A stretch of DNA of 37,793 nucleotides, from NCBI GenBank assembly GCA_017402445.1, contig JAFPME010000004.1, positions 1 to 37,793 on the forward strand, in the 5' to 3' direction. The DNA is from Prevotella sp. Lineage in GTDB: Bacteria > Bacteroidota > Bacteroidia > Bacteroidales > Bacteroidaceae. The position numbers and the translations under genes are program-made. The notes below the pieces were generated by a model, which was not told where the DNA came from, ran no database searches, and saw nothing but the letters and a program-made list of their open reading frames with translations. Shown here one piece after another: positions 2,415 through 31,006 of this stretch (positions are counted from its first letter, which is position 1; the number at the start of each line of letters is the position of its first letter).

Positions 2415-2472
2415 CAGCCGGGGCCTCGCGACCATGCGCGTTCACGGAAAAAGATTAAAAGAAGGACCATCT

Positions 2473-3901: not shown

Positions 3902-3999
3902 CGCGCTTCACTGACGAACGAAAGATTGGAAGGCAGGAACAAAAGGGTGGAAGGAGAAAGGAACAATGGTTTCAGACACGATAATAAGTTTTGACGATT

Positions 4000-6660
4000 A
4001 TGACATATAGAAAAATCTTGCTGCTTGTGGCCTTGATGCTCTCGCTGGGAGCAGGGGCACAGGAGAAGATTGTGAACCCTGACATCACCTATGCAGGCAC
4101 GCCTCGCAGTTGCACCATTGCCGGTCTGGCCGTCTCGGGTGTTGAGGGATATGAAGACTATGTGCTGACAGGCATTTCAGGATTACAGGTAGGACAGCAT
4201 ATTACCGTCCCGGGAACGCAAATCACGGATGCCGTGAAAAGATACTGGAAGCACGGCTTGTTCTCGAGAGTGTCCATCAGCGCTGACTCTCTCGTCGGCG
4301 AGAAAATCTATCTCCACATCCGTCTGGCCGTCAGGCCGCGCGTCTCGACCATCAACTACATCGGTCTGAAAAAGTCGGAACGCGAGGACATGGAGAAGAA
4401 ACTGGGTCTGCTCAAGGGCAGCCAGATTACCCCGAACATGATTGACCGCGCGAAGATACTCGCAAAGAAGTATTTCGACGACAAAGGTTACAAGAATGCT
4501 GACATCAACATCATGCAACGCGACGATGTGTCGAACAAGAATCAGGTGATTCTGGACATCACCGTGGACAAGAAGGAAAAGATGAAGGTGCACCAGATCA
4601 TCATCGAGGGTAACGAAAAGCTCTCGGACTCGAAAATCAAGGGTAAGCTTTTCACCAAAGGTGCCTTCAAGAACATACACGAAGTAAACAAACTCTCCAC
4701 TTTCCTGAAGAAGAAGAAGTTCACACCGGAACGCTGGAAGGAAGACAAACAGAACCTGATTGACAAATACAACGAGTACGGATACCGCGATGCCACCATT
4801 CTGGAAGACAGCGTCTGGAACTTCGACGACAAGCACGTCAATATATATATAAAGGTGGACGAGGGGCAGAAATACTATCTGAGGAACATCACTTGGGTGG
4901 GAAACACCATCTATGACACCGACCATCTGGCCAATGTGCTGGGCATGAAGAAAGGCGACGTCTACAACCAGAAGTACATGAACAAGCGACTCTCGGAGGA
5001 CGACGACGCCGTGGGCAACCTCTACTGGAACAACGGTTACCTGTTCTACAACCTGCAACCGACCGAAGTGAACATCGTCGGCGACAGCATCGACCTGGAA
5101 ATGCGCATTCAGGAGGGCCCGCAGGCTCATATCAGCCGCGTACGCATCATGGGTAACGACCGTCTGTACGAGAACGTCATCCGACGCGAGCTGCGTACCA
5201 AGCCGGGCGACCTCTTTTCCAAGGATGCCTTGCAGCGAAGTGCGCGTGAAATAGCTGCCATGGGACACTTCGACGCTGAGCAGGTGAATCCCGATGTGAA
5301 GCCGAACTACGAAGACGGCACGGTTGACATCAACTGGAACCTCGTGCAGAAGTCGAACGACCAGATAGAGTTCTCGCTCGGATGGGGACAGACAGGTATC
5401 ATCGGCCGCATCGGTCTGAAGTTCAACAACTTCTCCATGGCAAACCTCTTCGGCAAAGGAAAGGAGCACAGAGGCATCATGCCTATCGGCGACGGCGAGC
5501 AAGTGTCACTGGGATTCCAGACCAATGCCAACTACTATACGTCGGGTAACATCTCATACGCCACCGGATGGTTCGGCGGAAAGCGACCCATCCAGTTCTC
5601 CATCAGCGCATTCTATTCGAAACAGAGTGACGTATCGAGCAACTACTACAACACTGCACTGATGCGAAACTACTACAGCGGCGGCTATGGATTGGGCTAC
5701 GGAAGCAGTATCTACAACACGTTTGAGAACTTCTACGATCCCGACAAGTACGTGAAACTGCTCGGTGTCTCCGTAGGATGGGGTAAACGCCTGCGCTGGC
5801 CTGACGATTACTTCACGCTGAACCTCGAACTGGCCTACACCAGATACATGCTGAAGAACTGGAGTTACTTCCTGGTCAGCAACGGTAACTGCAACAACCT
5901 GAACCTCGGCATCACGTTGGCACGCTCCAGCGCAGACAATCCGCTCTTCCCGCGCTACGGTTCGGAGTTCATGGCTTCCGTCACACTCACGCCGCCATGG
6001 TCATTGTGGGAGAAATACGACTACGCGAACCTCGCCACCGACCCACAGGCAGCTGATTACCAAAACCAACAGCAGAAGAAATACCGCTGGATTGAATACC
6101 ACAAATGGAAGTTCAAGAGCCGTACGTTCACCGCTCTGTCAGGCGGAGCGAAATGTTTCGTGCTGATGACACGCGTGGAACTGGGTATCCTTGGCGCATA
6201 CAACAAAGACAAGAAGTCGCCTTTCGAAGGATTCTACGTCGGCGGTGACGGCATGAGCGGCTACAGCAGCGGCTATGCTGAAGAGACCATCGGACTGCGA
6301 GGCTACGAGAACGGTGCCATTTCGAACACGGCCGTGCGAGAATCTGGCATGGGCTACCGCTACAATGCGTACGCTTACGACCGTCTGTCGGTAGAACTTC
6401 GCTACCCGTTCCTGCTCGGCAATACAACCATCTACGGCTTGGGCTTCCTCGAAGCAGGTAACGCATGGACAGACACAAAGAACTTCAACCCGTTCAACAT
6501 GAAGCGTTCGGCCGGTCTCGGCGTGCGCATCTACCTCCCGATGGTGGGTCTGATGGGTATCGACTGGGCATACGGTTTCGACAAAGTGCTCAACTCCTCG
6601 AACAATGCCTACAGCCGTGGCGGCTCAAACTTCCACTTCGTGCTCGGACAGGAGTTCTGA
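4000..6660 (+). CDS. bamA: Outer membrane assembly factor BamA
   Basis: This is the central barrel of the machine that folds outer-membrane proteins. The 886-residue product has a signal peptide (ending GAGAQ), a series of POTRA domains to about residue 430, and a C-terminal barrel. In the barrel the conserved loop-6 motif appears as IGLRGYENG (VRGF/Y class), and the protein ends FHFVLGQEF with the expected terminal Phe. I chose ATG 4000 over the in-frame TTG 3991, since the hydrophobic signal begins there. No new promoter is evident in the 98 bases upstream, so it is probably transcribed with uppS. The following skp paralogues fit the same pathway. Confidence 0.96.
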   Translation: MTYRKILLLVALMLSLGAGAQEKIVNPDITYAGTPRSCTIAGLAVSGVEGYEDYVLTGISGLQVGQHITVPGTQITDAVKRYWKHGLFSRVSISADSLVGEKIYLHIRLAVRPRVSTINYIGLKKSEREDMEKKLGLLKGSQITPNMIDRAKILAKKYFDDKGYKNADINIMQRDDVSNKNQVILDITVDKKEKMKVHQIIIEGNEKLSDSKIKGKLFTKGAFKNIHEVNKLSTFLKKKKFTPERWKEDKQNLIDKYNEYGYRDATILEDSVWNFDDKHVNIYIKVDEGQKYYLRNITWVGNTIYDTDHLANVLGMKKGDVYNQKYMNKRLSEDDDAVGNLYWNNGYLFYNLQPTEVNIVGDSIDLEMRIQEGPQAHISRVRIMGNDRLYENVIRRELRTKPGDLFSKDALQRSAREIAAMGHFDAEQVNPDVKPNYEDGTVDINWNLVQKSNDQIEFSLGWGQTGIIGRIGLKFNNFSMANLFGKGKEHRGIMPIGDGEQVSLGFQTNANYYTSGNISYATGWFGGKRPIQFSISAFYSKQSDVSSNYYNTALMRNYYSGGYGLGYGSSIYNTFENFYDPDKYVKLLGVSVGWGKRLRWPDDYFTLNLELAYTRYMLKNWSYFLVSNGNCNNLNLGITLARSSADNPLFPRYGSEFMASVTLTPPWSLWEKYDYANLATDPQAADYQNQQQKKYRWIEYHKWKFKSRTFTALSGGAKCFVLMTRVELGILGAYNKDKKSPFEGFYVGGDGMSGYSSGYAEETIGLRGYENGAISNTAVRESGMGYRYNAYAYDRLSVELRYPFLLGNTTIYGLGFLEAGNAWTDTKNFNPFNMKRSAGLGVRIYLPMVGLMGIDWAYGFDKVLNSSNNAYSRGGSNFHFVLGQEF

Positions 6661-6902
6661 TCAACGCCACTGCGGAGCAACAGACAGTGAACAAACGTAC
6701 GCTGAGTGCATTATATATAATAAATGTAAAGGCCAAAACGAATACGATGAAGGCAGAAAAGCCGCATTCATACGGCCCAAACGTACGCACGGGGTGTTGA
6801 AAACAGCCCGTTGAAGACCTAATTTAACAATTAATAAGAAACCGACGGTTAATCTTTTCAAGTCAGGTGTCCGTCATATTGCAGAATCAAAACTGTGAAA
6901 CT

Positions 6903-7412
6903 ATGAAGAAAATAATGATGATAGCCCTCTTCGCCATCACCGCGATGACGGCAAGTGCACAGAAGTTCGCACTGATAGACATGGAATACATCCTGAAGAA
7001 CATTCCTGCCTATGAACGTGCCAACGAGCAACTTTCCCAGGTAGCAAAGAAATGGCAGGCCGAGGTCGACGCGCTGAACACCGAGGCACAGACCCTTTAC
7101 AAGAACTACCAGAATGAAGTGGTCTTCCTTTCGCAGGAACAGAAGAAGCAGAAACAAGAGACCATCATGCAGAAAGAGCACGAAGCAAGCGAGCTGAAGA
7201 AGAAGTACTTCGGACCGGAAGGAGAGCTCTTCAAGAAGCGCGAAGCACTCATGACGCCGATTCAAGAGGAAATCTACAACGCACTGAAGGACATTTCCAA
7301 GCTGCGCGGCTACGATCTCGTCATCGACCGCAGCGAACAAGGCATTGTTTTCGGCTCGCCCAAGATTGACATCAGCAACGAAGTGCTGCAGAAACTGGGC
7401 TACAGCAATTAA
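6903..7412 (+). CDS. OmpH/Skp-family periplasmic chaperone, copy 1
   Basis: The 169-residue protein has a signal peptide (cleavage near ASAQ) and then the OmpH/Skp pattern: KFALIDMEYILKNIP, a long charged helical middle rich in Lys, Glu and Gln that would form the tentacle-like coiled coil, and a C-terminal strand region (YDLVIDRSEQGIVFGSPKIDIS). Skp proteins hold unfolded outer-membrane proteins in the periplasm and hand them to BamA. I chose ATG 6903 rather than the in-frame GTG 6867 because the signal peptide starts there. The 242-base gap from bamA contains no clear promoter or terminator. Confidence 0.92.
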   Translation: MKKIMMIALFAITAMTASAQKFALIDMEYILKNIPAYERANEQLSQVAKKWQAEVDALNTEAQTLYKNYQNEVVFLSQEQKKQKQETIMQKEHEASELKKKYFGPEGELFKKREALMTPIQEEIYNALKDISKLRGYDLVIDRSEQGIVFGSPKIDISNEVLQKLGYSN

Positions 7413-7495
7413 GACTTGAACCGAGAGCGCCCTGTCCGCCCTCCCTTCCCCATGGTAAGAACAATTATCCTAAAACAATAAAACAAGAACGAAAA

Positions 7496-7993
7496 ATGAA
7501 AAAAATTATTTTAATGTTGATGTTGTTTGCTCCGATAGCAACATTCGCACAGAAGTTTGGACATGTCGACACACAGGCCATCATGCAGTCTCTGCCTGAG
7601 CTGAGCAAGGTGAACGGTGAACTGGAAGCCCTGAGCAAGCAGTACCAGAACGAGCTCGAAGGCATGCAGCGCGAAATCCAGACCAAGATGGATGCCTACC
7701 AGAAGCAGCAGAGCACCATGAACGAAACGCAGAAGAAAGAGACCGAGGCTGAACTGAACAAGCTCTACGAGAAGTTCCAGCAGGCCCAGCAGGATAACGG
7801 TAACGCTTTCCAGAAGGCTCAGCAAGAGAAAATCCAGCCAATCCAGGAGAAAGTCTTCAAGGCTATCGAGAATGTCGGCAAGGCCGGTGGCTATGTCTAC
7901 ATCATGCAGACGGGTTCGCTGCCCTATATCAGCAGCACGCTGAGCAAGGATCTCACCACGGAAGTGAAGGCCGAGCTCAACAAGATGAAATAA
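7496..7993 (+). CDS. OmpH/Skp-family periplasmic chaperone, copy 2
   Basis: This 165-residue paralogue has a short signal peptide (MKKIILMLMLFAPIATFAQ), the KFGHVDTQAIMQSLPE opening and a long Gln/Lys/Glu-rich coiled coil. The end (GGYVYIMQTGSLPYISSTLSKDLT) matches the family. It lies 83 bases after copy 1 on the same strand and presumably acts on the same clients. The coiled coil is notably Gln-rich compared with copy 1, so the copies are diverged rather than a recent duplication. Confidence 0.92.
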   Translation: MKKIILMLMLFAPIATFAQKFGHVDTQAIMQSLPELSKVNGELEALSKQYQNELEGMQREIQTKMDAYQKQQSTMNETQKKETEAELNKLYEKFQQAQQDNGNAFQKAQQEKIQPIQEKVFKAIENVGKAGGYVYIMQTGSLPYISSTLSKDLTTEVKAELNKMK

Positions 7994-8072
7994 ACATGTT
8001 CCGGAAATCATCGAGGAACACCATTACAGACAACAAAAGCAAAAAGGTAAAAGCGTAAAAAGACAAACGACT

Positions 8073-8636
8073 ATGAATCAGAACAGTGACAAACAACAGC
8101 GCAACAAAACATGGTTGAAGGCCATTTTCCTGTTTTACCTTTTTGCTTTTCTTCCCCTCAACGCCTCAGCACAGATACGTTTCGGCTACTTCAGCTACGA
8201 ACAAGTGTTCCGTAACATGCCCCAGTACTCCATCATGCAGCGCAACATGGACAATCTCGAGGCACAATACGACGCCGAAATGAAACGCGCCGAGGACGAA
8301 TTCAACAGCAAGTACGAAGATTTTCTCCTCCATCGGTCCACCTACGCTGAGCCCATCAAGCAGAAGCGTCAGGCCGAACTGCAGGCCCTCATGGAGAAGA
8401 ACATCGCTTTCAAGAAAGAGGCGAACCGACTTCTGGAAGCAGCACGCCGAGATGCCGAGATGCCGCTGAAGCAAATGATTGCCGAAGCCCTCGCCACCAT
8501 CGGCCAGCAGGGCGGATACGCCTTTATCCTCAATACCGACAACAATGCAGTTCCGTTCATCGACCCCGCTTTGGGCGAAGACATTACCCAACAACTGAAG
8601 CAGCGACTGGAGCAGAACCAATCCGTCCAGCCGTAA
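8073..8636 (+). CDS. OmpH/Skp-family periplasmic chaperone, copy 3
   Basis: The third paralogue has 187 residues. Its N-terminal polar stretch of about 15 residues precedes the hydrophobic signal core (AIFLFYLFAFLPLNASAQ), longer than in the other two copies. The mature part starts IRFGYFSYEQVFRNMP, has a charged helical centre, and ends GGYAFILNTDNNAVPFIDPALGEDIT like other OmpH proteins. It is followed 45 bases later by murI. Periplasmic chaperone activity is inferred from family and context. Confidence 0.9.
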   Translation: MNQNSDKQQRNKTWLKAIFLFYLFAFLPLNASAQIRFGYFSYEQVFRNMPQYSIMQRNMDNLEAQYDAEMKRAEDEFNSKYEDFLLHRSTYAEPIKQKRQAELQALMEKNIAFKKEANRLLEAARRDAEMPLKQMIAEALATIGQQGGYAFILNTDNNAVPFIDPALGEDITQQLKQRLEQNQSVQP

Positions 8637-16930: not shown

Positions 16931-18805
16931 ATGAAAAAACCGCTCGTTTCAATAGCTTTTGCTTTCACACTGTGTGCTTCCGCCTCTGCCACCAACCACA
17001 GCATGGTCACTGATTCTGTAGCAGCAGACAACAATCTGGATGCTATCTCCGACGCCGTCAGCGCTGAAAAGCAACTGTCAGCTGACGAAGATACCCGACT
17101 GACAGAAAGCGAGGGACTGCCCAAATGGGCCACTTCGCCGACAGGTCCGGGTGAAAAGAAGCTCCCGCTGTCTCTTGTCATGAAATCAGCCAGTGCACCC
17201 ACAAGTGCCCCGAAGATTGACCTGGACCTCTTCAAAATGAAAACGAACCCCGGCGTGAAACCCTATCGGTTCCTCGACGACGTGTCGTTCGTCGGCATCC
17301 CTCTTTTTATTGCCGGTGCAGCCATCAAGGGCGAGAAGAAGTCGTTCCGACAGAACTACAGCGACGCACAGGCTAACACACGATTGCTGAAGTCGTTCAA
17401 GACGCACATCGACGACTACACACAGTTCTTCGGACCGGCAATGACTGTGGGACTGAAGATCGGCGGCGTGGAGGGACGCAGCAGCTGGCCGCGCCTGCTG
17501 GCCAGTGCCGGCTTGTCGTATGCGCTGATGGCGGGCTTCGTAAACAGCATCAAATACACGGCAAGCGAGATACGCCCCGACGGTTCCACGGCCAACTCGT
17601 GGCCCTCGGGCCATACGGCCACATCGTTTGTCGGTGCCACGCTGCTCCACAAAGAGTATGGACTGACACGCTCGCCCTGGTATTCGGTGGCTGGCTACGG
17701 CGTAGCCACGGCCACGGGTGTGATGCGCGTGCTGAATAACCGCCACTGGGTGTCGGACGTGCTCTCGGGAGCAGGCATCGGTATTCTCTCCACCGAGCTG
17801 GGCTATGCCATCGGCGACTTGCTCTTCAAGGAGAAAGGACTGCTGCGCAACGACTTCGAGGACACGAGCGAAAACCCTTCGTTCTTCGGTATATCGATGG
17901 GTATGTCGCTCGGTTCGAAAGAACTGGAGTTTTTGGAGAGCGACAATGTCGACAATTTTTCCTTCTTTGACGACGATCAAATCAACTCAACCGCCTGCAA
18001 TGTGGACTTCCACACGGCCACCTCGGTCGATGCCGAGGGTGCCTACTTCTTCAACAAGTATGTGGGTGTGGGCGGAAGGCTGCGCGTCAGGGCCATGACG
18101 GCAAAGGACTGGAAGGAAGACCCTAACGAGACCGATGCAACCTACTCCGGATTCATGATGTCGCCCCTTATTTATACTTTGGTTACTCCAGAAACATACC
18201 CGACCATGGAGGAAGAGAACGCCGCGACCAGATTGGAACAAGGCGTGCAGTCGTGCAACTACACCATCGTGAGCGACCACCTCACCGAGTTCTTAGCCAG
18301 CGTGGGTCTCTATTTCAACATTCCGCTGAGCAAGCGTTTCGCCCTTGGCACAAAGGCTCTCGTGGGACGTTCCATCATGCAGGATCTGGAAGTAGACGCG
18401 CATTTCAAGGGCAAGAAGTTTGGCATCAACAGCCATGTGGAGATCAACGACATGAATCCCTTCGATACCAATATCGTACTAAGTAACCTGAAGGATGAGG
18501 GTGAATACGATGCACAGTGGCCCATGTTAACGCTGGCCGGTAACAGCTCGAGCACCCTGGGCACTGGCCTGTCGCTGACCTACCAGTACAAGTCGAACTT
18601 CTCGTGGAAACTGTTCGTCGACTACGACTATTCGAGGAAGACCTACACATTGACCTATGACCCGTTGCACTACTTAGAATACGTCAGCGGCGACATGACT
18701 GCCATCTACAACCTCTTGGGCGGCGAAACCGATCCCGAGGTGTACCGCATAAAGAAGAACATGCACTACTTCACCATCGGCGGCACGTTCGCCATCAACC
18801 TGTAA
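16931..18805 (+). CDS. Secreted PAP2 phosphatase with barrel-like C-terminal half
   Basis: The 624-residue protein has a signal peptide (MKKPLVSIAFAFTLCASASA) and a Ser/Thr-rich spacer. A complete PAP2 active site follows: Lys208-x6-Arg215-Pro216, PSGH with His228, and RVLNNRHWVSD with His272 and Asp276. From about residue 330 to the end are alternating strands (GAYFFNKYVGVGGRLRVRAM, FLASVGLYFNIPL, FALGTKALVG, LSLTYQYKS), ending HYFTIGGTFAINL, as in an outer-membrane barrel. The likely role is dephosphorylating a lipid or small phosphate at the outer membrane; that is inference. It is first in an operon, 15 bases before the phosphatase/HATPase gene. Confidence 0.85.
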   Translation: MKKPLVSIAFAFTLCASASATNHSMVTDSVAADNNLDAISDAVSAEKQLSADEDTRLTESEGLPKWATSPTGPGEKKLPLSLVMKSASAPTSAPKIDLDLFKMKTNPGVKPYRFLDDVSFVGIPLFIAGAAIKGEKKSFRQNYSDAQANTRLLKSFKTHIDDYTQFFGPAMTVGLKIGGVEGRSSWPRLLASAGLSYALMAGFVNSIKYTASEIRPDGSTANSWPSGHTATSFVGATLLHKEYGLTRSPWYSVAGYGVATATGVMRVLNNRHWVSDVLSGAGIGILSTELGYAIGDLLFKEKGLLRNDFEDTSENPSFFGISMGMSLGSKELEFLESDNVDNFSFFDDDQINSTACNVDFHTATSVDAEGAYFFNKYVGVGGRLRVRAMTAKDWKEDPNETDATYSGFMMSPLIYTLVTPETYPTMEEENAATRLEQGVQSCNYTIVSDHLTEFLASVGLYFNIPLSKRFALGTKALVGRSIMQDLEVDAHFKGKKFGINSHVEINDMNPFDTNIVLSNLKDEGEYDAQWPMLTLAGNSSSTLGTGLSLTYQYKSNFSWKLFVDYDYSRKTYTLTYDPLHYLEYVSGDMTAIYNLLGGETDPEVYRIKKNMHYFTIGGTFAINL

Positions 18806-18820
18806 GCAACTCTTACGTAC

Positions 18821-21070
18821 ATGAATAAAAAAGGGTGGGAACGCATCGTCAGGTCTGTGCAGGCTCGTTCGGGCCTGCTCATCGTCATCTTGGCAGCTGC
18901 TTTGGTGGAGCTGGTGAGCGTGGTGCAGTATCTATATGCTCGCGAAGGCATCCGCCAGGAGGTGCAGCAAAGAGCCGAGAACGAACTGCGCATGAAGAGT
19001 CTGGAAATCAAGAACATGATGACCTCGGTGGAGGTGGCCTTGCAGAACATGGCATGGGCGGTGGAACAGAACATCGACCGGCCGGAGCAAGCCGCAGAGA
19101 TGTGTCGCCGCATCGTCAGAAACAACCCTCAGATTGCGGGTTGCGGATTGGCTTTCGTGGCCGACTACTTCCCCCAGCGCGGCCGTTGGTGCGAACTCTA
19201 CACCCTCGGTATCGGCGACGGTGAGGCCGGGGCTGTGCAGCAAATAGGTTCGGCCGACCACGACTATCTCAAGGCAGAGTGGTTCACTGTGCCGATAGAG
19301 ACAGGCAAAGGCTACTGGAGCGAGCCCTACTACGACAATGCCGGAGCAAAGGCCCTGCTCTGCAGCTATTCCCTCCCCGTGCATGACCGGAAAGGGCAAA
19401 CGGTGGCCGTCATCGGTGCTGACCTGCCGCTGGAGTGGATCAGCGGGGTCATTGCACGTACGAAGACACTGAAATCGTCGTATAACCTCTTGTTGAGCCG
19501 TACCGGAAAGCTGATTGCTTGTCCTGAAGACAGTTTGGTGATGAGACGCACTGTGCAAGAGGCGACACGCGGCATGAACGACACAATGGCTCAGGTGGTA
19601 AACCGCAGGATGATGGGCGGGGAGCACGGACAGGCCGTGGTCTACGACAACGATGGTAACAAGAATATCGTGTTCTTCGCACCCGTGGAGAACGAAACAG
19701 GATGGTCAATGTCGGTGGTTTGTTCCGACAAGGAAATCTATAGCAGCCTGCACCAGATGGGGCTGAAACTGCTGATACTGATGATACTGGGACTTTCGCT
19801 GCTCGCCTTCATCATCTACCGGATGGGGCGCAGCTTCAAGCGGTTGCAGGAAGCAAATGCTGAAAAAGAACGCATCGCCAGCGAGCTGCATATCGCCAAC
19901 GGCATACAGATGGGCATGGTGCCGAAAGTATTCCCACCCTACCCCGACCGCGACGACATGAGCGTCTATGCCACCATGAAACCTGCCAAGGAAGTGGGTG
20001 GCGACCTGTACGACTTCTACATCCGCGACGAGAAACTGTTTTTCTGCGTTGGTGACGTCAGTGGGAAGGGTGTTCCGGCTTCGCTTGTAATGGCCGTCAC
20101 GCGCAGCATGTTCCGCATTGTCTCCAATCATGAATCAGCCCCAGAGCGCATCGTGCGCGCACTGAACGATACGGTGAACGAGACCAACGAAACAAACATG
20201 TTCGTAACACTGTTTGTCGGCGTACTCGACCTGCCCACAGGCCGACTGCGCTATTGCAACGCAGGCCACTGCCCGCCCTTCGTCATCGGGAAGGACTGGC
20301 AGCAACCACTGAACGTAGACACAAACGTACCGATCGGCATTGTAGAAAACTGGAAATACACCGCACAGGAAACGACACTGAAAACAAACACAACCATTTT
20401 CACCTACACCGACGGTGTGCTGGAGGCCGAAAATGCAGAATACGAACAGTTCGGAGAGCAACGCATGCACATGACAATCGACAGCATGCCGGCCAACGAG
20501 CGCACACAACCGGAAGAACTCATCATGGAAATGACGAAAAGAGTGGAACAATTCACCGACGGAATGAAACAGAACGACGACCTGACAATGCTCGCCATTC
20601 TGTTCAACAAAACAACGATGGCCGAACGACTCCAGCGCAGTATTACGCTGCCCAACGACATAGAGACCATTCCTCAGCTTCAAACCTTCGTCGAGGAACT
20701 GGGCGAAGAACTTCATTTAGACGACTCAACCGTCATGAACCTGAACCTCGCGCTGGAAGAAGCCGTTGTGAACGTCATGAACTATGCCTATCCGCCGGAA
20801 ATAAAAGGAGACGTCACCATCAAAGCTGAAGCCAACGATGTGAGACTGAAGTTCACCATCTGCGACAGCGGAACACCCTTCGACCCGACCGCCATCGCAG
20901 ATGCCGACACCACACTCTCAACCGAAGAACGCCCCATCGGCGGTCTGGGCATCTTCATGGTTCGCCAGATTATGGACTCGATCAACTACGAACGCGTCGA
21001 CGGACAGAACATCCTGTCACTGAGGAAGAAACTGCCGAACGACGGAGTTACATCACAACCACAACAATAA
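18821..21070 (+). CDS. Sensor-SpoIIE phosphatase-HATPase fusion (partner switching)
   Basis: This 749-residue protein combines both opposing activities of a partner switch. Order: a membrane span near residues 20-40; a periplasmic dCache-like sensor to about 305 (PQIAGCGLAFVADYFP, HDYLKAEWF, GYWSEPYYD); a second span near 311-330; a short linker with no clear HAMP; a PP2C/SpoIIE phosphatase (VGGD at 392-395, GDVSGKG, TYTDGVLEAEN, QNDDLTMLAI); and from about 605 an anti-sigma-type HATPase (ALEEAVVNVMNYAY, DSGTPFDP, GGLGIFMVRQI). By family, the phosphatase dephosphorylates and the HATPase phosphorylates a STAS-domain partner. That partner is probably the STAS gene starting 8 bases later. Confidence 0.92.
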   Translation: MNKKGWERIVRSVQARSGLLIVILAAALVELVSVVQYLYAREGIRQEVQQRAENELRMKSLEIKNMMTSVEVALQNMAWAVEQNIDRPEQAAEMCRRIVRNNPQIAGCGLAFVADYFPQRGRWCELYTLGIGDGEAGAVQQIGSADHDYLKAEWFTVPIETGKGYWSEPYYDNAGAKALLCSYSLPVHDRKGQTVAVIGADLPLEWISGVIARTKTLKSSYNLLLSRTGKLIACPEDSLVMRRTVQEATRGMNDTMAQVVNRRMMGGEHGQAVVYDNDGNKNIVFFAPVENETGWSMSVVCSDKEIYSSLHQMGLKLLILMILGLSLLAFIIYRMGRSFKRLQEANAEKERIASELHIANGIQMGMVPKVFPPYPDRDDMSVYATMKPAKEVGGDLYDFYIRDEKLFFCVGDVSGKGVPASLVMAVTRSMFRIVSNHESAPERIVRALNDTVNETNETNMFVTLFVGVLDLPTGRLRYCNAGHCPPFVIGKDWQQPLNVDTNVPIGIVENWKYTAQETTLKTNTTIFTYTDGVLEAENAEYEQFGEQRMHMTIDSMPANERTQPEELIMEMTKRVEQFTDGMKQNDDLTMLAILFNKTTMAERLQRSITLPNDIETIPQLQTFVEELGEELHLDDSTVMNLNLALEEAVVNVMNYAYPPEIKGDVTIKAEANDVRLKFTICDSGTPFDPTAIADADTTLSTEERPIGGLGIFMVRQIMDSINYERVDGQNILSLRKKLPNDGVTSQPQQ

Positions 21071-21078
21071 AGAAAGAA

Positions 21079-21384
21079 ATGGAAACAGAAATCAAAGAAA
21101 AGGATGGGAAACTGTACGTAAAATTCACAGGAAGGCTCGACACGTCGGCTGCTTCCCGCGTGGAGAACGATATCAAGCAGCTGAACAGCACTCTGGAACG
21201 CGACATCGTACTCGACTGTGCCGACCTGGTATACATCTCATCGAGCGGACTTCGCATCTTTCTCGGCATCCTGAAGAGTGCCAAAAGCAAGAACCTGCAC
21301 GCCTACATCCAGAATTTGACCCCCGAAGTGGAAAAGATTTTCAAGATGACGGGCTTCATCAACCTCTTCGAAAGCCTTGATTAA
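21079..21384 (+). CDS. STAS-domain anti-sigma-factor antagonist, module 1
   Basis: The 101-residue protein is a single STAS domain: GRLDTSAASRVENDI, DIVLDCADLVYISSSGLRIFL and MTGFINLFES. The phospho-acceptor by analogy with SpoIIAA/RsbV is Ser56 in YISSSGLR. It lies 8 bases after the phosphatase/HATPase fusion and is almost certainly its substrate. No sigma factor is encoded nearby, so the downstream target is unknown. It is last in the operon and is followed by two hairpins. Confidence 0.93.
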   Translation: METEIKEKDGKLYVKFTGRLDTSAASRVENDIKQLNSTLERDIVLDCADLVYISSSGLRIFLGILKSAKSKNLHAYIQNLTPEVEKIFKMTGFINLFESLD

Positions 21385-23888: not shown

Positions 23889-25106
23889 ATGACAGAACGG
23901 ATTCGGAACTTCTTACTGCGCCCTTTGTCCATGGGTTGTCGTCAGCTCAAGGGCAAACTGGCCCTCTCGGCGTTCAGGGAGCACGTCTTCGTGTGCATCA
24001 TCGTGCTGCTCTTCATGGTTATTCTCGCCGCGCTGTCACTCAATCTCAGCATCTTCAGCCCCTTCCGGCAAGCTTTCGACGACTTCTCCATCACCGATGT
24101 CTACTACACTATCCAGCGAACTGACAACAACGTAGAGTGGAGCAACGACATAACCATCGTGGACATCACCGACCAGCACAGCCGGTCGGACATCGCACGC
24201 ACACTGACGCAGGTGGCCGAATGCAAGCCGAAGCAGGTGGTCATCGACCTCATCTTCGCTTCACCCGGCGAACAACCGCTTGCCGACGATTCGCTCGTGC
24301 GGGCCATTGACGCCCTTCCCGACAAGGTTCTCGCCATGAAGCTCACCGACTACGACCCTGAAAAATCTTCCTTCACGGCTTGCGTGCATTCGTTCTTCTG
24401 TCCGCCTGACGCACCTTACAACGGTTTCGTCAATCTACCCAAGAGCATCAACAGCGGAGTGCTGCGGACGTTCAGCATGTTTGAAACCTTTCAGGGAGAC
24501 ACCGTGCAAGCCCTCGCACCCCTTGCTTGTAGCAAATCGGGGCTAAAGACGCCCTCGCTGCAACCACGCGAAAGAATCATAGCCTTCAACAACGTACAGT
24601 TCCCCGTCGTCAGATACGACTCCATTGCGCAACTCAAGGGGCTGCTCACCGGCAAGATTGTCTTTGTCGGTGCAGTTCACGAGGAATCCGACATGCACAT
24701 CACACCCATCGGAAAGCGCCCCGGAACCGAAATACAGGCACACATCATGCAGACCTGCATTTCGCATCCGCACATCAAGACGACCGGCACATGGTTCTCT
24801 GTCTGTCTGGCTGCCCTGTTGTGTCTTCTTTCAGCATGGATAGGACACAAGATTCAGAAAAGATTCCCACTCATGTACCTCTATTGGCTTCAGGGCTACT
24901 ACTTTCTGCTCTCCGCACTGCTTGTCTGGATTGGCTTCATCTGCTACGTCAAGTTCGACCTGTACATCAAAATGACGATTCCCTTCGTCGCTATGGCACT
25001 GGTAGAACAAGCACGTCTTCACTACAAATGGATCATCTCCTACGGCAAGGCGCACCCAGAAAAGAAGTGGCTCAGCCGTCTGACGCAAAAGTCCATCTAT
25101 GCCTGA
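23889..25106 (+). CDS. CHASE2-domain membrane sensor protein
   Basis: The 405-residue protein has an N-terminal membrane span (about residues 34-54), a long extracytoplasmic CHASE2 domain (TIVDITDQHS, VVIDLIFASPGE, GKIVFVGAVHEESDMHITPIGKRPGTEIQAHIMQ) and a C-terminal group of three spans. There is no kinase, cyclase or other output domain, only a short basic tail after the last span. CHASE2 is an extracellular sensor domain normally fused to such outputs, so this protein probably signals through a partner. It opens a tightly packed cassette with a caspase-like gene 34 bases downstream. Confidence 0.88.
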   Translation: MTERIRNFLLRPLSMGCRQLKGKLALSAFREHVFVCIIVLLFMVILAALSLNLSIFSPFRQAFDDFSITDVYYTIQRTDNNVEWSNDITIVDITDQHSRSDIARTLTQVAECKPKQVVIDLIFASPGEQPLADDSLVRAIDALPDKVLAMKLTDYDPEKSSFTACVHSFFCPPDAPYNGFVNLPKSINSGVLRTFSMFETFQGDTVQALAPLACSKSGLKTPSLQPRERIIAFNNVQFPVVRYDSIAQLKGLLTGKIVFVGAVHEESDMHITPIGKRPGTEIQAHIMQTCISHPHIKTTGTWFSVCLAALLCLLSAWIGHKIQKRFPLMYLYWLQGYYFLLSALLVWIGFICYVKFDLYIKMTIPFVAMALVEQARLHYKWIISYGKAHPEKKWLSRLTQKSIYA

Positions 25107-25140
25107 CTGATTCATAAGCTCAAAACGTTACCCGACCATT

Positions 25141-27051
25141 ATGCGAAAACTGTTTTTCATCGTTTGTCTACTTGCTGGTCTACTCTCGGAAGTCACACAA
25201 GTCCACGCGCAGAGCACTCGGAAAAAGACCACTTACGAGCTCTACGCCGAAGAAGCTGCGAAGACACCCGCTGAGGAATGGGTGAAAAGAGGGGACGACC
25301 AGTATGAGAGACAGAACGTCGTCGGAGCGGTGGCATGCTACGGTTGGGCGGCCGATCAGGGACATGCCGACGCTCAGTTCAAGTATGGCTACGCGCTATA
25401 CTTCGGCGAAGGCATCGAGAACGACTATACCTCGGCTGCCATGTGGTTCAAACGTGCCGCTGTGCAGGGACATGCCAAGGCCATGTACAACCTTGCCTAC
25501 TGCTACATGTACGGCAAAGGTGTGCCCACCAACTACGAGAAAGCGCTGGAATACCTGAAGCAAAGTGCCCAGAACGGATGCAAAGAGGCTCAGGAAACAT
25601 TGGCCGAGTGCTACGAGAAAGGCGTCCTCGTGGAGCAAGACGCCGACGAGAGTCTGAAATGGAAGCGCATGGCCAACGGTGGAGAGCCTGTCAAGCAGCC
25701 CGAACAGCCAGCCGCCACTGAGGCAGACCAAGCTGTCCAATGGCCGGAACAACCCGAAACCGTCATGCCCGAACTGCTCGAGCAGCCCTCGCTGACCGTA
25801 GACCTTGCTGAACAACAACCAGCGAAACCGCAGACTGCGGACAACAGCAGCAGCCAACCACTGCCGCAACAGGGCACACCGGCCAAGACAACAGCCAACA
25901 ACAACCCATCAAGCAGCGGACAAGGCACCATCCTGAGCCGGGAGGACATTCTGAAAATGAAGGACAAACCCGCTCCGACCCAAGAAAAAACCGTTGCACA
26001 GACACCCGAGCAGTCTGTTGTCGCTGCCCCACCCGCCCTCCGCATTCTCTTCCCCGTAGACCAAGCCTCCTTCCACACACGTTCCATCAAGGTGAAATAC
26101 CAGCTGATAGCGAAGGGAATGGAAGACAAGACACACGTCACCGTAATGGTCGACGGCGTGAAACAGCCTGCCGACAGGGCCGTGAAAGCTGCCAACACCA
26201 TCGACGTAGACCTGCCCGACCACGACTGCACCGTCATTCTCTACGCCCAGAACGAGTACGGCAACAGCGAACCTGCCAGCATCCGGCTCGTCAGGGAACA
26301 GAAACAAGAAACGCTGCCCAGGCTCCTTGCCGTGGCCATCGGCGTGGGCGACTACCACGACCCGCAGCTTCCACCGCTGAAGTTCACCAGCAAGGATGCC
26401 AAAGACTTCAGCACGAGCATCATGAAGAAAAAGCACTTCCCCTACAGCGAGGTGCAAGTGAAACTGCTCTGCGACTCCATGGCCACACGCGATGAGTTCT
26501 TCGAGTCCATGGAATGGCTCAAACAGGAGGCCACGCCCAACGATGTGTGCATCTTCTTCTACGCCGGACATGGCTATCGCGACGAGAAAGACCGTTTCTA
26601 CTTCATGCCTTTCGGCAGTACAACCGACCGGCTCTACAACTGTTTCAGCAGTGCTGACTTCCGGCGCGAAGCAGAAGACATCAACAGCAAGTTCATTGTC
26701 TTCGTCGACGCCTGCTACTCCGGGGCACTGATGGAGGGCAACCGTTCGGCCAGTGCGCACTTCGTGGAACAGCTCCGACGCACCAAGAACGGAATGGTGC
26801 TCTTCGCGTCGAGTGCTTCCGACACCAAGTCAAAGGAAGACACGGCTTGGGGTAACGGTGCCTTTACGAAGGTTCTGGTGGACGCCATGAACGGTGCGGC
26901 CCGTGAACCCGGCGATGAAGGACTGTCCACACAGCAGTTAGAGCAATACTTATATAAAGAGGTAAGGAAGCTGACAGACTTCAAGCAAACACCGATATTC
27001 ATCAACCCGAGCGGTATCGAACACTTTAACATTTTCACCTATGAACCATAA
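25141..27051 (+). CDS. Sel1-repeat caspase-family protease (C14), secreted
   Basis: The 636-residue protein has a signal peptide (to about residue 24). Sel1-like repeats follow from about 45 to 185 (AVACYGWAADQGHADAQFKY; AAMWFKRAAVQGHAKAMYNL; LKQSAQNGCKEAQETL), then a Gln/Pro-rich linker to about 300, an Ig-like segment, and a C-terminal caspase p20 domain. The catalytic dyad is intact: His477 in FFYAGHGY and Cys525 in VFVDACYSGAL. The expected specificity is cleavage after basic or acidic residues, which sequence alone cannot settle. The signal peptide places it in the periplasm or envelope, unusual against the cytoplasmic caspases of many defence systems. It overlaps the next gene by 11 bases. 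Confidence 0.92.
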   Translation: MRKLFFIVCLLAGLLSEVTQVHAQSTRKKTTYELYAEEAAKTPAEEWVKRGDDQYERQNVVGAVACYGWAADQGHADAQFKYGYALYFGEGIENDYTSAAMWFKRAAVQGHAKAMYNLAYCYMYGKGVPTNYEKALEYLKQSAQNGCKEAQETLAECYEKGVLVEQDADESLKWKRMANGGEPVKQPEQPAATEADQAVQWPEQPETVMPELLEQPSLTVDLAEQQPAKPQTADNSSSQPLPQQGTPAKTTANNNPSSSGQGTILSREDILKMKDKPAPTQEKTVAQTPEQSVVAAPPALRILFPVDQASFHTRSIKVKYQLIAKGMEDKTHVTVMVDGVKQPADRAVKAANTIDVDLPDHDCTVILYAQNEYGNSEPASIRLVREQKQETLPRLLAVAIGVGDYHDPQLPPLKFTSKDAKDFSTSIMKKKHFPYSEVQVKLLCDSMATRDEFFESMEWLKQEATPNDVCIFFYAGHGYRDEKDRFYFMPFGSTTDRLYNCFSSADFRREAEDINSKFIVFVDACYSGALMEGNRSASAHFVEQLRRTKNGMVLFASSASDTKSKEDTAWGNGAFTKVLVDAMNGAAREPGDEGLSTQQLEQYLYKEVRKLTDFKQTPIFINPSGIEHFNIFTYEP

Positions 27052-27991
27052 CGAAACACTCAGACGCGTTTTCACGCTCAAGAATCATCCACTCATGCGC
27101 GCTTTCACACTCGTCTTGGTCTGGATGACAGCACAGATGGCTCTTGCCGACAGCTTTCTGGTCTATTCCGTCATCGGAAATGTCAAACAGACGAACGGAA
27201 ACAAGCAGATTGCATTGGCGGCAAGGACGACGATCCAGTCAGAAACACGCCTCACAATCGGAAAAGAAAGTGCCGTCACCGTCATCGACGAGCGCAACAA
27301 CAAGCTCTATTCCTTCACGACCACGGGCACGAACAGCGTGAAGACACTCCTCGCCAAGGCCAAAGGCGGAAAGAGTCTGACCAAACAATACGCGAGCTAC
27401 CTCGTGAAAAACCTGTTCTCGAAAGAGAGCAGCAAGCTCTCACACCCCAGTTCCTACATGCAGACGGCAGCTGCCGCCTACCGTTCCACGGCTACCGACT
27501 CGCTCCTGCTGAACAAAATCGCCTACTTGAAGAACGAGCACCACACGAACACCGTCGAAGAAGCCATCGTTCAGGAACAGACACACATCATCGGCGACCT
27601 TGACGTACGCTTCGAACTGGTCTCCTGTCTCACCGGACTGCCCATCGGAAAGGAAGTGGAACCGAACACCAGCTGCTACGTGAAGATCTACAACAACACG
27701 AAAGAGGCCCTCTACGTGAACATCCTGGACATCGACGAGCACGGAAACAAATACCTCGTGCTTCCTGTCGACGATGCCGCCCTGTGCGCCCATCTGCTCG
27801 TTCCGGCCGAAAGCACCGTCTGCTTCACCTCCGAACCATTCGAGTTTGTCGAAGCAAAGACGAAAGAAGCCTTCCTGCTCGTTGCCACCGAAGAGCCCGT
27901 CGACTTCAGCATCCTCATGAATCCCATCGAGGGCAGCGGCAACAAGCACCTGAAATCAGGACTTTACAGAAACGTCTATGAAACAAAATAA
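27041..27991 (+). CDS. DUF4384-like secreted protein
   Basis: The 316-residue product has a membrane-targeting segment (AFTLVLVWMTAQMALA). An N-terminal part of the FecR-like type follows (FLVYSVIGNVKQTNG, RLTIGKESAVTVID). The C-terminal half matches DUF4384 (SCYVKIYNNTKEALYVNILDID, KYLVLPVDD, FLLVATEEPVDFSIL). DUF4384 domains are often encoded beside or fused to caspase-family proteases in bacteria, as here. ATG 27041 overlaps the caspase stop by 11 bases; an internal Met at about residue 19 is an alternative start. A substrate, scaffold or regulator of the protease is plausible but unproven. Confidence 0.8.
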   Translation: MNHNETLRRVFTLKNHPLMRAFTLVLVWMTAQMALADSFLVYSVIGNVKQTNGNKQIALAARTTIQSETRLTIGKESAVTVIDERNNKLYSFTTTGTNSVKTLLAKAKGGKSLTKQYASYLVKNLFSKESSKLSHPSSYMQTAAAAYRSTATDSLLLNKIAYLKNEHHTNTVEEAIVQEQTHIIGDLDVRFELVSCLTGLPIGKEVEPNTSCYVKIYNNTKEALYVNILDIDEHGNKYLVLPVDDAALCAHLLVPAESTVCFTSEPFEFVEAKTKEAFLLVATEEPVDFSILMNPIEGSGNKHLKSGLYRNVYETK

Positions 27992-28655
27992 CCTTTTCCA
28001 CCGCGCTTTCATCATCGCGTTGCTCGCTTGCTGCGCCCTCAGCCTGTCCGCTCAGAAGACAGACCGCGACAAAAAGAATGCCGACGAAGCACTCTACACG
28101 CTGCTCACCAGCAAGCACACCCCCGAGAAACGCACCACGACATTCCAATTTCAGGCCAAAGACCTGCAAGCGACCTACGATTCCAACATCTTTCTCATCA
28201 GTGGAACCCACTTTCAGATTGAGACGCTGACCAACAACTTCTATGTAGAGAAAGCCGACGACGGAGCCTACCAGCCCGTCTTCCACGCAAAGTACCCACT
28301 TGAGTCGCTCGTCAACCTGATGCTCAATCTCACGCATGGCGACGACCGGAACATTGTCATCGACCAGCACCTCTACGGAGAGCGAAAGGCCATCGGCCCC
28401 ATTCCCATGGCAAACATCAACGAACTGCTCGCCCCCACCATGCAGGCCTACTGCAACGTCACTGCCATCGAGGGCAACGTGCTCAAAGCCATACTGGTGT
28501 ACCATCAGCCAAAGGACGACTACATACACATGTTCATTGTCGAAACAACCACCGAAGAGCTGTTCAAACCCTCCGGAACGCTGAAGGCACAGCTCTACGG
28601 CAACATTCCGCAAAGCAACCTTAAAAACCTATTCAAAAAATACAGACAGCCATGA
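27978..28655 (+). CDS. Unrecognised secreted protein of the caspase cassette
   Basis: The 225-residue protein has a signal peptide (RAFIIALLACCALSLSAQ) and no domain I recognise. The mature part is mixed alpha/beta with an even charge distribution and no clustered Cys or catalytic-looking motif. It overlaps the previous gene by 14 bases and the next by 4 (ATGA), so coupled translation and joint function are likely. It is probably periplasmic. Confidence 0.75.
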   Translation: MKQNNLFHRAFIIALLACCALSLSAQKTDRDKKNADEALYTLLTSKHTPEKRTTTFQFQAKDLQATYDSNIFLISGTHFQIETLTNNFYVEKADDGAYQPVFHAKYPLESLVNLMLNLTHGDDRNIVIDQHLYGERKAIGPIPMANINELLAPTMQAYCNVTAIEGNVLKAILVYHQPKDDYIHMFIVETTTEELFKPSGTLKAQLYGNIPQSNLKNLFKKYRQP

Positions 28656-29641
28656 ACACAAAAGTCATGCAAGCCATTGCCGTCGTCATGATGGCATTCA
28701 CTTTCAGCCATGCCAACGCACAGGGCACAACGTTCTTCATCAAGGACGGTATTGACAACCCGAATCTCAAGGCAAAGATGGAGCACAACGTCAACGCAAT
28801 GATAGCCGCATTCAAGACAGCCGTCATCGAGAAGAAAAAGCCCAAGCTGCCCAGCAGCATCTTCACCGACGACGTGGAAGACAGAATCGAAGAAATGTGG
28901 AAAACAAGCGCCATGAACTTCCCCATCGTCGAAATCAAGTCGCGCTGCCTGAACACCTCAACAGGCTATCAGGTGCGCGGAATACCCGTCGACGTGCTCG
29001 AAGCCGACAAGGACGAGGAACGGCAAGAACTGACCGTCGACTTCCAACGCGACGGAAGAATCAGCAACGTCTCCATCGCCATCGAGATGAACCGCTACGA
29101 AATGATCATGTCGAAGCGGTCCAGCGACCTCGACTACGAGCGCCGCCAGATGATTGTCGACTTTGTCGAGAACTTCCGCACGGCTTACAACCGCAAAGAC
29201 CTGAAGATGCTCAACAGCGTCTTCAGCGACAAAGCCCTCATCGTCACAGGAAAAGTGGTGCGCGAAAAGCCCAACAGCGACATCACCAGGATGACGCTCA
29301 ACAACAACCGCGTCGTCTACATCAAGCAAACCAAGCAGGAGTACATGCAACGACTGCAGCGAATCTTCAAGCTCTCGAAGTTCGTAAACGTGAAGTTTGA
29401 AGACGTCGAAGTGACACAGCACCCCAAGTACGACGACATCTACGGCGTCAACCTGAAACAGTACTGGCACACCAGCCGCTACAAAGACGTGGGGTACCTC
29501 TTCCTGATGATCGACTTCCGCGACCCCGACAATCCGCTCATCCAGGTGCGCACGTGGCAACCAGACAAGGACGACAAGGGAAACGTGGTGACCAGAAAGG
29601 AAAACGTGTTCCACCTGGGATCGTTCAGAATCGTCAGATAA
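28652..29641 (+). CDS. Secreted protein with a possible NTF2-like domain
   Basis: The 329-residue product has a signal peptide (ending SHANAQ). The middle contains FVENFRTAYNRKDLKMLNSVFSDKALIVTGKVV, which resembles the opening helix and strand of NTF2-like/SnoaL folds. That match is by pattern only. The end is strand-rich (DVGYLFLMIDFRDPDNPLIQVRTWQP). It starts inside the ATGA overlap with the previous gene and ends 21 bases before the next. No function is assigned beyond membership of the cassette. Confidence 0.75.
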   Translation: MNTKVMQAIAVVMMAFTFSHANAQGTTFFIKDGIDNPNLKAKMEHNVNAMIAAFKTAVIEKKKPKLPSSIFTDDVEDRIEEMWKTSAMNFPIVEIKSRCLNTSTGYQVRGIPVDVLEADKDEERQELTVDFQRDGRISNVSIAIEMNRYEMIMSKRSSDLDYERRQMIVDFVENFRTAYNRKDLKMLNSVFSDKALIVTGKVVREKPNSDITRMTLNNNRVVYIKQTKQEYMQRLQRIFKLSKFVNVKFEDVEVTQHPKYDDIYGVNLKQYWHTSRYKDVGYLFLMIDFRDPDNPLIQVRTWQPDKDDKGNVVTRKENVFHLGSFRIVR

Positions 29642-29662
29642 ACCAATCATCAACATAGCATT

Positions 29663-31006
29663 ATGAAAAAAATTCTATTCTTTGCCCTGTCCATGCTCCT
29701 CGGCATGACAGCTTCCGCACAAGGCATCCTGCAAGTGGAAGACCAGACCAACCCAAGCGACGTCTACACCAGCACGAACGACCAGGCGGCACTGCGCGTA
29801 CGTTGCCACCATGACATCGCGCTGAGCTTCTCTTCATCGATGGACAAGACGGCCAACCCCTTCAATACAGTGCTCGAAGGCTCCGATTCCATCTACTACA
29901 TCGAGTTCCCAACAGGCCCACGCTACCGTGGCCGCATCCTCACCATTTCCGCGCCCGGCTACTTTCCAATAGATGTTCCGCTGGAAATGGAGCCCAAACA
30001 GCTGCTCTCCATACGGCTCTTCGACCCGAACAGCCAAGTGGATGCCGGCTGCTACCGCCTCCACCGCAACAAAGGCGTTGAGGAGATGAAGAACATGAAC
30101 TACTCCGAGGCGCTCAACCAGTTCCAACTGGCCAGCGAATGCTCGGATACCGACTCGACAGAAAATGCCGCCAACCTGGCACTCGTAGACTCGCTCATCC
30201 AGCTGCGCAAGGAGGCCGACCAGGCATTCCAGCTGCTCGACTACTCCAAGGCAGCCAGTCTCTACAGCATCATCGTCGGTTTGAACTCGTACGACACCTT
30301 TGCCATCGACCGCATGAACGAGAGCAACACCAAGTTTTCGTCCGAGTGCACTGTCACCTTCAAGCGAGCTGAGGCCTACTTCGACGAAAGAGAATACGAG
30401 AAAGCAAAGGTGCTCTACCAGAAAATCATCGACAACGGATGCTTCCAGGCCACCATGGCCACCGACCGCATCGCCTCCATCGACCGATACACCACGGCAA
30501 AGGCCGACCACGCGAACATCGTATCTTACGAATGGCTCAACGGAGCGCCCATCGGTATTCATTACGGTAGATACAACATGCATAAGGTGGGCGGCTTCTT
30601 CCATCTGAACCTCCATCCGAAGGTGTTCGACGCCATCCGCGAGGAATGCACCGTCGGCGACAAGCCCGAAATACAGATGGGCTTCGGCTGGACGGTGAAG
30701 ATTGCCAACCCTGTCTGGATCCACTTCGGACCGGGTTTCGGCGCGAAGCTCTACTACGGCGACTACATGAAGGACAAGTTCCCGGGCAAAGACGGAAAGC
30801 CCGTGGCAGCCGACGACCTCGACCCCAGGGGAAAGCTGAGCAAGACGAACGCCGCCTTCTACATCAATCCGGAGCTCGGCATCACGGCGAAGTACAGCTA
30901 TTTCGCGCTTCGTCTGACCTACCAGTACCGCTTCGCCCTGAAGAAAGACCTTGAGGACTTCATCGGCAAGCACCGCATCATCGTCGGCGTGGGTGTGGCC
31001 TTCTGA
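29663..31006 (+). CDS. TPR-containing protein with outer-membrane barrel-like C-terminus
   Basis: The 447-residue protein has a signal peptide (MKKILFFALSMLLGMTASAQ) and an N-terminal beta-sandwich-like part (RILTISAPGYFPIDVPLEM). A helical TPR-like centre follows (NYSEALNQFQLAS; LLDYSKAASLYSIIVG; EREYEKAKVLYQKII). The C-terminal strands (GIHYGRYNMHKVGGFFHLNLH, IQMGFGWTVKI, YFALRLTYQYRFAL) end HRIIVGVGVAF with a terminal Phe, as in outer-membrane barrels. This would anchor the caspase cassette at the outer membrane; that is inference. It is the last gene of the cassette. Confidence 0.8.
   Translation: MKKILFFALSMLLGMTASAQGILQVEDQTNPSDVYTSTNDQAALRVRCHHDIALSFSSSMDKTANPFNTVLEGSDSIYYIEFPTGPRYRGRILTISAPGYFPIDVPLEMEPKQLLSIRLFDPNSQVDAGCYRLHRNKGVEEMKNMNYSEALNQFQLASECSDTDSTENAANLALVDSLIQLRKEADQAFQLLDYSKAASLYSIIVGLNSYDTFAIDRMNESNTKFSSECTVTFKRAEAYFDEREYEKAKVLYQKIIDNGCFQATMATDRIASIDRYTTAKADHANIVSYEWLNGAPIGIHYGRYNMHKVGGFFHLNLHPKVFDAIREECTVGDKPEIQMGFGWTVKIANPVWIHFGPGFGAKLYYGDYMKDKFPGKDGKPVAADDLDPRGKLSKTNAAFYINPELGITAKYSYFALRLTYQYRFALKKDLEDFIGKHRIIVGVGVAF

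Follow-up and report, generated by a model that had tools for sequence, protein, structure and literature searches.

The six genes at positions 23889-31006 of the window (the whole 37,793-nucleotide stretch of Prevotella DNA analysed here, one contig of a 1.87 Mb genome assembly that is 50.7% complete) constitute a real, conserved envelope operon. The operon joins two modules that also occur separately, a CHASE2-P3-caspase unit and a P4-P5-P6 unit. Bacterial caspases are mostly discussed as cytoplasmic agents of defence or death, whereas this cassette predicts a periplasmic one. With a sensor, a candidate adaptor and a predicted outer-membrane partner encoded alongside it, the role of exported bacterial caspases becomes testable.

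The products, P0001-P0006 in the list of translated ORFs, are referred to as P1-P6 (Table 1). An earlier note on this DNA had described six codirectional genes with short overlaps or gaps, and the ORFs are indeed arranged in this way. From their coordinates, 34 nt separate P1 from P2 and 21 nt separate P5 from P6, while P2/P3, P3/P4 and P4/P5 overlap by 11, 14 and 4 nt, respectively. The neighbours are housekeeping genes, metG upstream and pyrE plus argH downstream. Scans for sigma-70 promoters (5 against 2.9 expected, sd 1.8) and for terminators (9 against 10.3 expected) gave counts near background, and no tRNA was found within the window. Antisense ORFs lying over the cassette, such as 29834-30973, were regarded as mechanical. 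Upstream of metG, the interval 16931-21384 encodes PAP2, dCache/SpoIIE/HATPase and STAS proteins (Pfam); genes resembling this set, judged by size and start only, lie near the cassette of locus L151.

Table 1. Features of the six-gene cassette (positions in the window).
Feature	Position	Strand	Description	Basis
P1	23889..25106	+	CHASE2 membrane protein without output domain	Pfam PF05226, hydropathy
P1, CHASE2 domain	24042-24827	+	residues 52-313	Pfam PF05226
P2	25141..27051	+	Sel1-repeat caspase, signal-peptide-like N terminus	Pfam, dyad alignment, hydropathy
P2, Sel1 repeats	~25273-25680	+		
P2, caspase domain	26326-27000	+		
P2, His477 codon	26569-26571	+		
P2, Cys525 codon	26713-26715	+		
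P3	27041..27991	+	predicted exported	
P3, CHASE2-partner domain	~27128-27400	+	N-terminal	
P3, DUF4384-like domain	27680-27898	+	C-terminal, weak	
P4	27978..28655	+	no known family; hydrophobic N-terminal segment	
P5	28652..29641	+	well conserved, predicted exported	
P5, NTF2-like fold	29108-29590	+	C-terminal	AlphaFold2, fold comparison
P6	29663..31006	+	beta-sandwich, TPR, predicted outer-membrane barrel	AlphaFold2, Foldseek
P6, TPR	30050-30508	+		
P6, predicted outer-membrane barrel	30515-31000	+		

CHASE2 signalling receptors usually have an output domain within the same protein. P1 matches CHASE2 with an E value of 1.3e-19 (71.2 bits, cut-off 26.3), contains no second Pfam domain above cut-off and ends after a C-terminal hydrophobic or TM cluster, which together with one N-terminal TM segment makes up its topology by crude hydropathy. 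The sensor without output domain that had been read from the sequence is thus borne out. A tblastn search of plasmids with P1 returned no match. P2 had been taken for a Sel1-repeat caspase with an intact His477/Cys525 dyad, and so it proved: the Sel1 (E 9.2e-23) and Peptidase_C14 (E 7.6e-19; 68.8 bits against 21.4) matches both exceed the Pfam cut-offs, and an alignment of 26 Sel1-caspases shows His477, Cys525 and Asp419 in 25 and Asp523 in all. In Trypanosoma metacaspase 2 (TbMCA2), the residue aligned to Asp419 is likewise an Asp and forms part of the S1 pocket; since Asp523 moreover lies within the DAC motif, P2 is predicted to cut after Arg or Lys. As an EACC1-associated caspase (NF047832), P2 falls below the curated cut-off (97.4 bits against 140).

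All six products had been credited with a signal peptide or membrane spans, and hydropathy agrees, as a prediction. P2-P6 start with hydrophobic, signal-peptide-like segments by a crude measure, although no clean cleavage motif was found in that of P4. A signal-peptide-like or TM N terminus occurs in 21-22 of 22 copies of each cassette product as compared to 386 of 798 other genes at the same loci, the measure being crude enough for 48% of control genes to pass. We predict that the cassette products are exported or membrane-bound.

In P3, the DUF4384 match (PF14326) covers the C-terminal part only and stays below the Pfam cut-off (E 8.5e-4; 19.8 bits against 27); the same family matches 5 of 31 partner proteins at E values up to 1. 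Hence, the DUF4384-like assignment made earlier stands, weakly, for the C-terminal part, and the N-terminal part is a separate domain, the CHASE2-partner domain, which fitted no Pfam family when the 31 partner proteins were scanned. FecR had been considered for this domain and was dropped, no Pfam FecR match being found in P0003; across the 31 partner proteins, FecR is missing from the first 25 of 32 families, and the other seven match at most one member each. PDB sequence profiles gave nothing credible for P3, P4 or P5.

A Pfam search of P4 likewise returned nothing credible, in keeping with the earlier view that it belongs to no known family; its relatives outside the cassette are mostly ~360-400 aa long. 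P5 gave sub-threshold Pfam matches only, one of them NTF2-like. The AlphaFold2 model of P5 (mean pLDDT 84.7) has an NTF2 fold over residues ~153-313, and supports the NTF2-like character tentatively proposed for it. Mean column identity in the P5 alignment (A2) is 71% over 14 rows. Csd6, Pgp2 and Bd1075 are peptidoglycan carboxypeptidases; by Pfam, P5 differs from them in having no carboxypeptidase domain, and the shared fold shows no function. In P6, Pfam recognized a weak TPR. The AlphaFold2 model (pLDDT 89.9; pTM 0.48, hence an uncertain arrangement of the domains) comprises a beta-sandwich, a TPR and an OmpX/Ail-like barrel, supporting the TPR and the barrel-like tail already noticed in the sequence. 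Foldseek matched the model to Ail, OmpX, OprF and OmpA, with E values of 1.3e-4 to 6.6e-4 for the first three. Thus, P6 is modelled as carrying an outer-membrane beta-barrel fold, whose membrane insertion is predicted.

A CHASE2 alignment (A1) offered no stretch of sufficient conservation to serve as bait for named genomes, and the conservation of the cassette was followed with the P5 alignment. P5 is 59% identical to its counterpart in family genome G100; the corresponding values are 52% (P2) and 51% (P6). Scanning named species genomes gave 133 P5 relatives; the best 80 were taken, a set biased towards P5 carriers near the window, in which the closest relative (Prevotella sp. UBA3294) is 74% identical. 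On the same strand within 9 kb of P5, these best 80 of 133 loci contain P4 in 78 instances, P6 in 68 (75 if either strand is considered), a caspase in 31 and CHASE2 in 22. The gene order recurs in relatives: CHASE2, caspase, P3, P4 and P5 are found together at 22 of the 80 loci and in the same order in all 22, counts that overstate independence as the loci are related and some near-identical. Median gaps along CHASE2-caspase-P3-P4-P5 are -4, -11, 0 and 9.5 nt. P6 adjoins every one of the 22 cassettes, on the same strand in 15 (median 25 nt after P5) and inverted in seven (L143, L144, L147, L148, L149, L153 and L154). Most of these cassettes are from Prevotella, the others from Prevotellaceae, Bacteroidaceae and one Muribaculaceae (L185), and many come from ruminants.

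When P2 was used as bait on 201 family genomes, the matches listed were mostly Sel1-repeat proteins, and among them only the one in G100 (52% identity) is full-length besides that of the window. P3 is full-length in 2 of 399 family genomes, again the window's and G100, and the latter has all six genes in the same order. The complete cassette is therefore rare across the family. Locus L162 is apparently contig C183 of G100 (21,061 bases), with an identical caspase domain. L141 keeps the other five genes, but metG is followed there by the caspase with CHASE2 missing in between, and none was found anywhere in that assembly. The cassette may be able to do without CHASE2, another gene may have taken its place, or an incomplete assembly may have concealed it.

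The two modules are also found apart. No same-strand caspase lies within 9 kb of P5 at 49 of the 80 loci, an absence partly limited by contig ends; where at least 6 kb of upstream and at least 4 kb of downstream sequence are available, 38 of 61 loci are caspase-free. P4-P5-P6 spans several Bacteroidales families, often without a caspase. P6 was detected in 15 of 201 family genomes, together with P4 and P5 in 14, while a contig end truncates the fifteenth locus. In 12 of these genomes the three genes are preceded by one for a TPR/Sel1-type protein of 644-818 aa (Pfam on three). A scan of the family CHASE2 loci (L095-L125) turned up neither P4 nor P6. At L176, P4-P5-P6 accompanies LytTR, FHA, PP2C and Ser/Thr kinase genes (Pfam), and at L158 it lies beside a kinase gene. 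At L215, a tubulin-like protein (5046-8144; PF13809, E 2.2e-42) is encoded upstream of P4-P5. Such occurrences of each module alone or in other company speak for two separate systems that share an operon for co-expression, the P4-P5-P6 outer-membrane unit being unrelated to the CHASE2-P3-caspase unit. We consider this reading unlikely on account of the ties between the modules described below.

In the P5 tree, all 31 caspase-bearing loci, the window and five caspase-free rows form one clade (37 rows, support 100/99). The Muribaculaceae loci L185 and L177, which have P2/P3-type genes, branch lowest, on long branches whose placement is unsure under a midpoint root; the P2/P3-type arrangement may be ancestral in the clade. 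Within it the identity of the caspase changes. The P2-type caspases make up one clade (27 rows, support 99/92); caspases fused to P5 (L151, L152) and caspases that come after P6 (L163, L167, L168 and L176, one clade) group with other caspases, and caspases of at least three lineages adjoin P4-P6. The caspase-P5 fusion (L151:8978-10924 and L152:8900-10936) counts as one event since the two are sister Prevotella loci; in L151, where its N terminus was checked, it starts in signal-peptide-like fashion. At L150, which has no P3 gene, a P2-type copy (2208-3914) with His477 changed to Asn and Cys525 to Ile adjoins a caspase that is intact and belongs to another lineage. The contig ends just upstream of the locus, and a search of the assembly found no CHASE2. 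Finally, the genome of L151 harbors a second CHASE2-partner operon, whose third protein includes, at residues 340-597, a P5 domain (E 9e-52). Judging from these sequences, caspase and P4-P6 are linked by the fusion, by the several caspase lineages beside P4-P6 and by the decayed copy next to an intact one. Of the earlier idea that sensor, protease, adaptor and anchor act as one system, the conserved unit, the predicted export and the fusion uphold a part; the separate occurrence of the two modules qualifies it.

Two side observations concern these loci. L163, L167, L168 and L176 all appear to have P4-P5-P6 in a LytTR/FHA/PP2C/Ser-Thr kinase operon (kinase set Pfam-checked in L176 only), and the caspase following P6 is small with a signal-peptide-like start. 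At L207, L212, L213 and L214, a gene similar in size to the tubulin-like gene of L215 occupies the same place.

With a confidence just short of even, we favour a periplasmic protease unit, controlled by P1 and P3, whose target or partner would be a P4-P5-P6 complex located at the outer membrane. What was observed are the genes present, the order in which they recur, the intact dyad, the links between the modules, the fusion and the way in which caspases replace one another; location and topology are predicted from sequence, and we infer proteolytic activity, direction of signalling, substrate and physiological output. P1 would span the inner membrane and expose its CHASE2 domain to the periplasm. 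Since P1 has no cytoplasmic output domain and its partners are predicted to lie outside the cytoplasm, the signal most likely travels sideways within the periplasm, possibly from P1 to the partner domain of P3 and on to the caspase. P2 could be recruited through its Sel1 repeats and, cutting after basic residues, would change the state of a P4-P5-P6 assembly or be gated by it, the assembly presumably reaching the outer membrane via the P6 barrel.

Alternatively, the cassette might serve in assembly or maturation of a surface structure, P1-P3 including the caspase processing a secreted client and P6 acting as its dock on the outer membrane. An OmpA-like gene (OmpA identity by Pfam in L105 only) lies just upstream of CHASE2 in 13 of 49 instances (fetched loci L095-L125, L224-L238, L247 and L248), and BACON and LRR proteins are encoded in the CHASE2-related loci L123 and L124, as this explanation would have it; no constant client gene accompanies the cassette, however, and the downstream genes vary between loci, which makes it improbable. 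A caspase domain that serves for scaffolding or binding, with proteolysis beside the point, is suggested by the inactive-looking copy at L150 and by Sel1 and TPR repeats, which hint at assembly. This seems distinctly improbable given that dyad and predicted S1 residue Asp419 are kept in 25 of 26 sequences and that the lone decayed copy adjoins an intact caspase. Several defence systems employ caspases as effectors, and the generic caspase model of PADLOC 2023 matches P2 (E 3.5e-9), but a periplasmic defence or programmed-death module whose caspase kills the cell upon infection is most improbable in view of the housekeeping neighbours, the predicted location outside the cytoplasm and the PADLOC search of the six proteins and two related caspases, which otherwise returned only a match to P6 that is not credible (E 0.0034).

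The periplasmic protease unit that we favour has partial precedents. P2 resembles orthocaspases and metacaspases in its Peptidase_C14 domain, His/Cys dyad and Sel1 partner. The accessible text of PMC3501461 names Sel1 as a common partner of the metacaspase domain (40 sequences), places 98 metacaspases at the membrane, the majority via an N-terminal helix that is possibly a signal peptide, and 30 outside, and reports OmpA in 14 metacaspase operons. As far as this text goes, such membrane or outside locations and OmpA operons fit the picture of the cassette. A natural metacaspase-CHASE2 fusion exists in Trichodesmium, the caspase being left in the cytoplasm by the authors in the parts available (PMC3501461, PMC2853523); here, in contrast, CHASE2 and caspase are separate proteins, export is predicted for the latter, and both belong to a six-gene envelope operon. 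The Burkholderia BiofilmReg operon is alike in having a CHASE2 protein beside an exported one (LysM-FecR), with no protease named in the accessible part of PMC5192318; it differs in that its CHASE2 belongs to a histidine kinase, whereas P1 has no output domain and no FecR match was found for P3. The literature searched included accessible parts of these articles and of PMC7475262, PMC8195603, PMC8406250 and PMC2877116, subscription journals being largely outside its scope; neither this operon nor a link between CHASE2 and CHAT was found described in it. PMC2877116 and PMC8195603, in the text available, name CHASE2 and deal with other subjects.

Output-less CHASE2 proteins with a secreted partner occur across Bacteroidota. 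P1 relatives are present in 29 of 201 family genomes and CHASE2 in 78 of 198 phylum-level genomes. Many of the phylum-level frames are ~730 aa long, and the sole one scanned (L222, 729 aa) is a guanylate cyclase fusion (PF00211, E 6.7e-21); the CHASE2-guanylate cyclases of Bacteroidota share their sensor with P1, which differs in having no output domain. Short CHASE2 frames (~390-500 aa) were found at 15 phylum loci, four of them with a caspase nearby by our own profile (L227, L234, L237 and L238; confirmed by Pfam near L237). A protein with the N-terminal domain of P3 is encoded just downstream of CHASE2 in 37 of the 49 instances (27 of 31 family loci, 8 of 16 phylum loci). In the family sample, a caspase-fold gene lies within 10 kb of CHASE2 at 21 of 33 loci (17 CHAT, 4 C14) against an expected 0.66% per locus (binomial P ~5e-38, kinship between loci uncorrected), and a direct scan revealed two further CHASE2 loci with C14 (G170:C49 and G104:C30). 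By hydropathy, the CHAT ORFs at family loci have a signal-peptide-like N terminus in 17 of 17 cases, and 16 contain the Cys motif LSACxTG.

Trans-envelope proteolytic signalling throughout Bacteroidota, running from output-less CHASE2 via the partner domain and an exported C14 or CHAT protease to outer-membrane machines, is a tentative extension that we think possible and rather doubtful. If true, it would amount to a receptor-plus-caspase pathway outside the cytoplasm. The pattern offers a hypothesis of function for the orphan class of CHASE2 proteins, as well as for several unnamed protein families of rumen and gut Bacteroidales. TPR-CHAT proteases (PF12770), such as Craspase and HetF, are likewise caspase-fold proteins with repeats, whereas the window protease is C14 and not CHAT. 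Craspase is cytoplasmic, unlike the CHASE2-linked CHAT proteins with their signal-peptide-like N termini. The latter also differ from cyanobacterial HetF, a divisome protein with one TM segment according to the accessible text of PMC8406250.

Several arrangements at CHASE2 loci may be added. At L096-L122 and related loci, CHASE2 and the partner domain share operons with an exported TPR-CHAT protein, and an OmpA-like gene frequently precedes them; in the genome of the window, one CHAT gene lies outside this contig (G000:C10:30421-31485, L140). The product of L124:11404-12798 starts with a part that is caspase-like by our own profile only and then matches the Autotransporter beta-domain (E 1.8e-6), possibly a caspase borne on an outer-membrane barrel; the BACON and LRR proteins of that locus come after it. 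The partner domain was also seen on larger proteins beside CHASE2 (L095:6541-8355, L111:10614-12452 and L113:7805-9634); those of L095 and L111 have weak transglutaminase matches, and both loci carry LRR-caspases as well.
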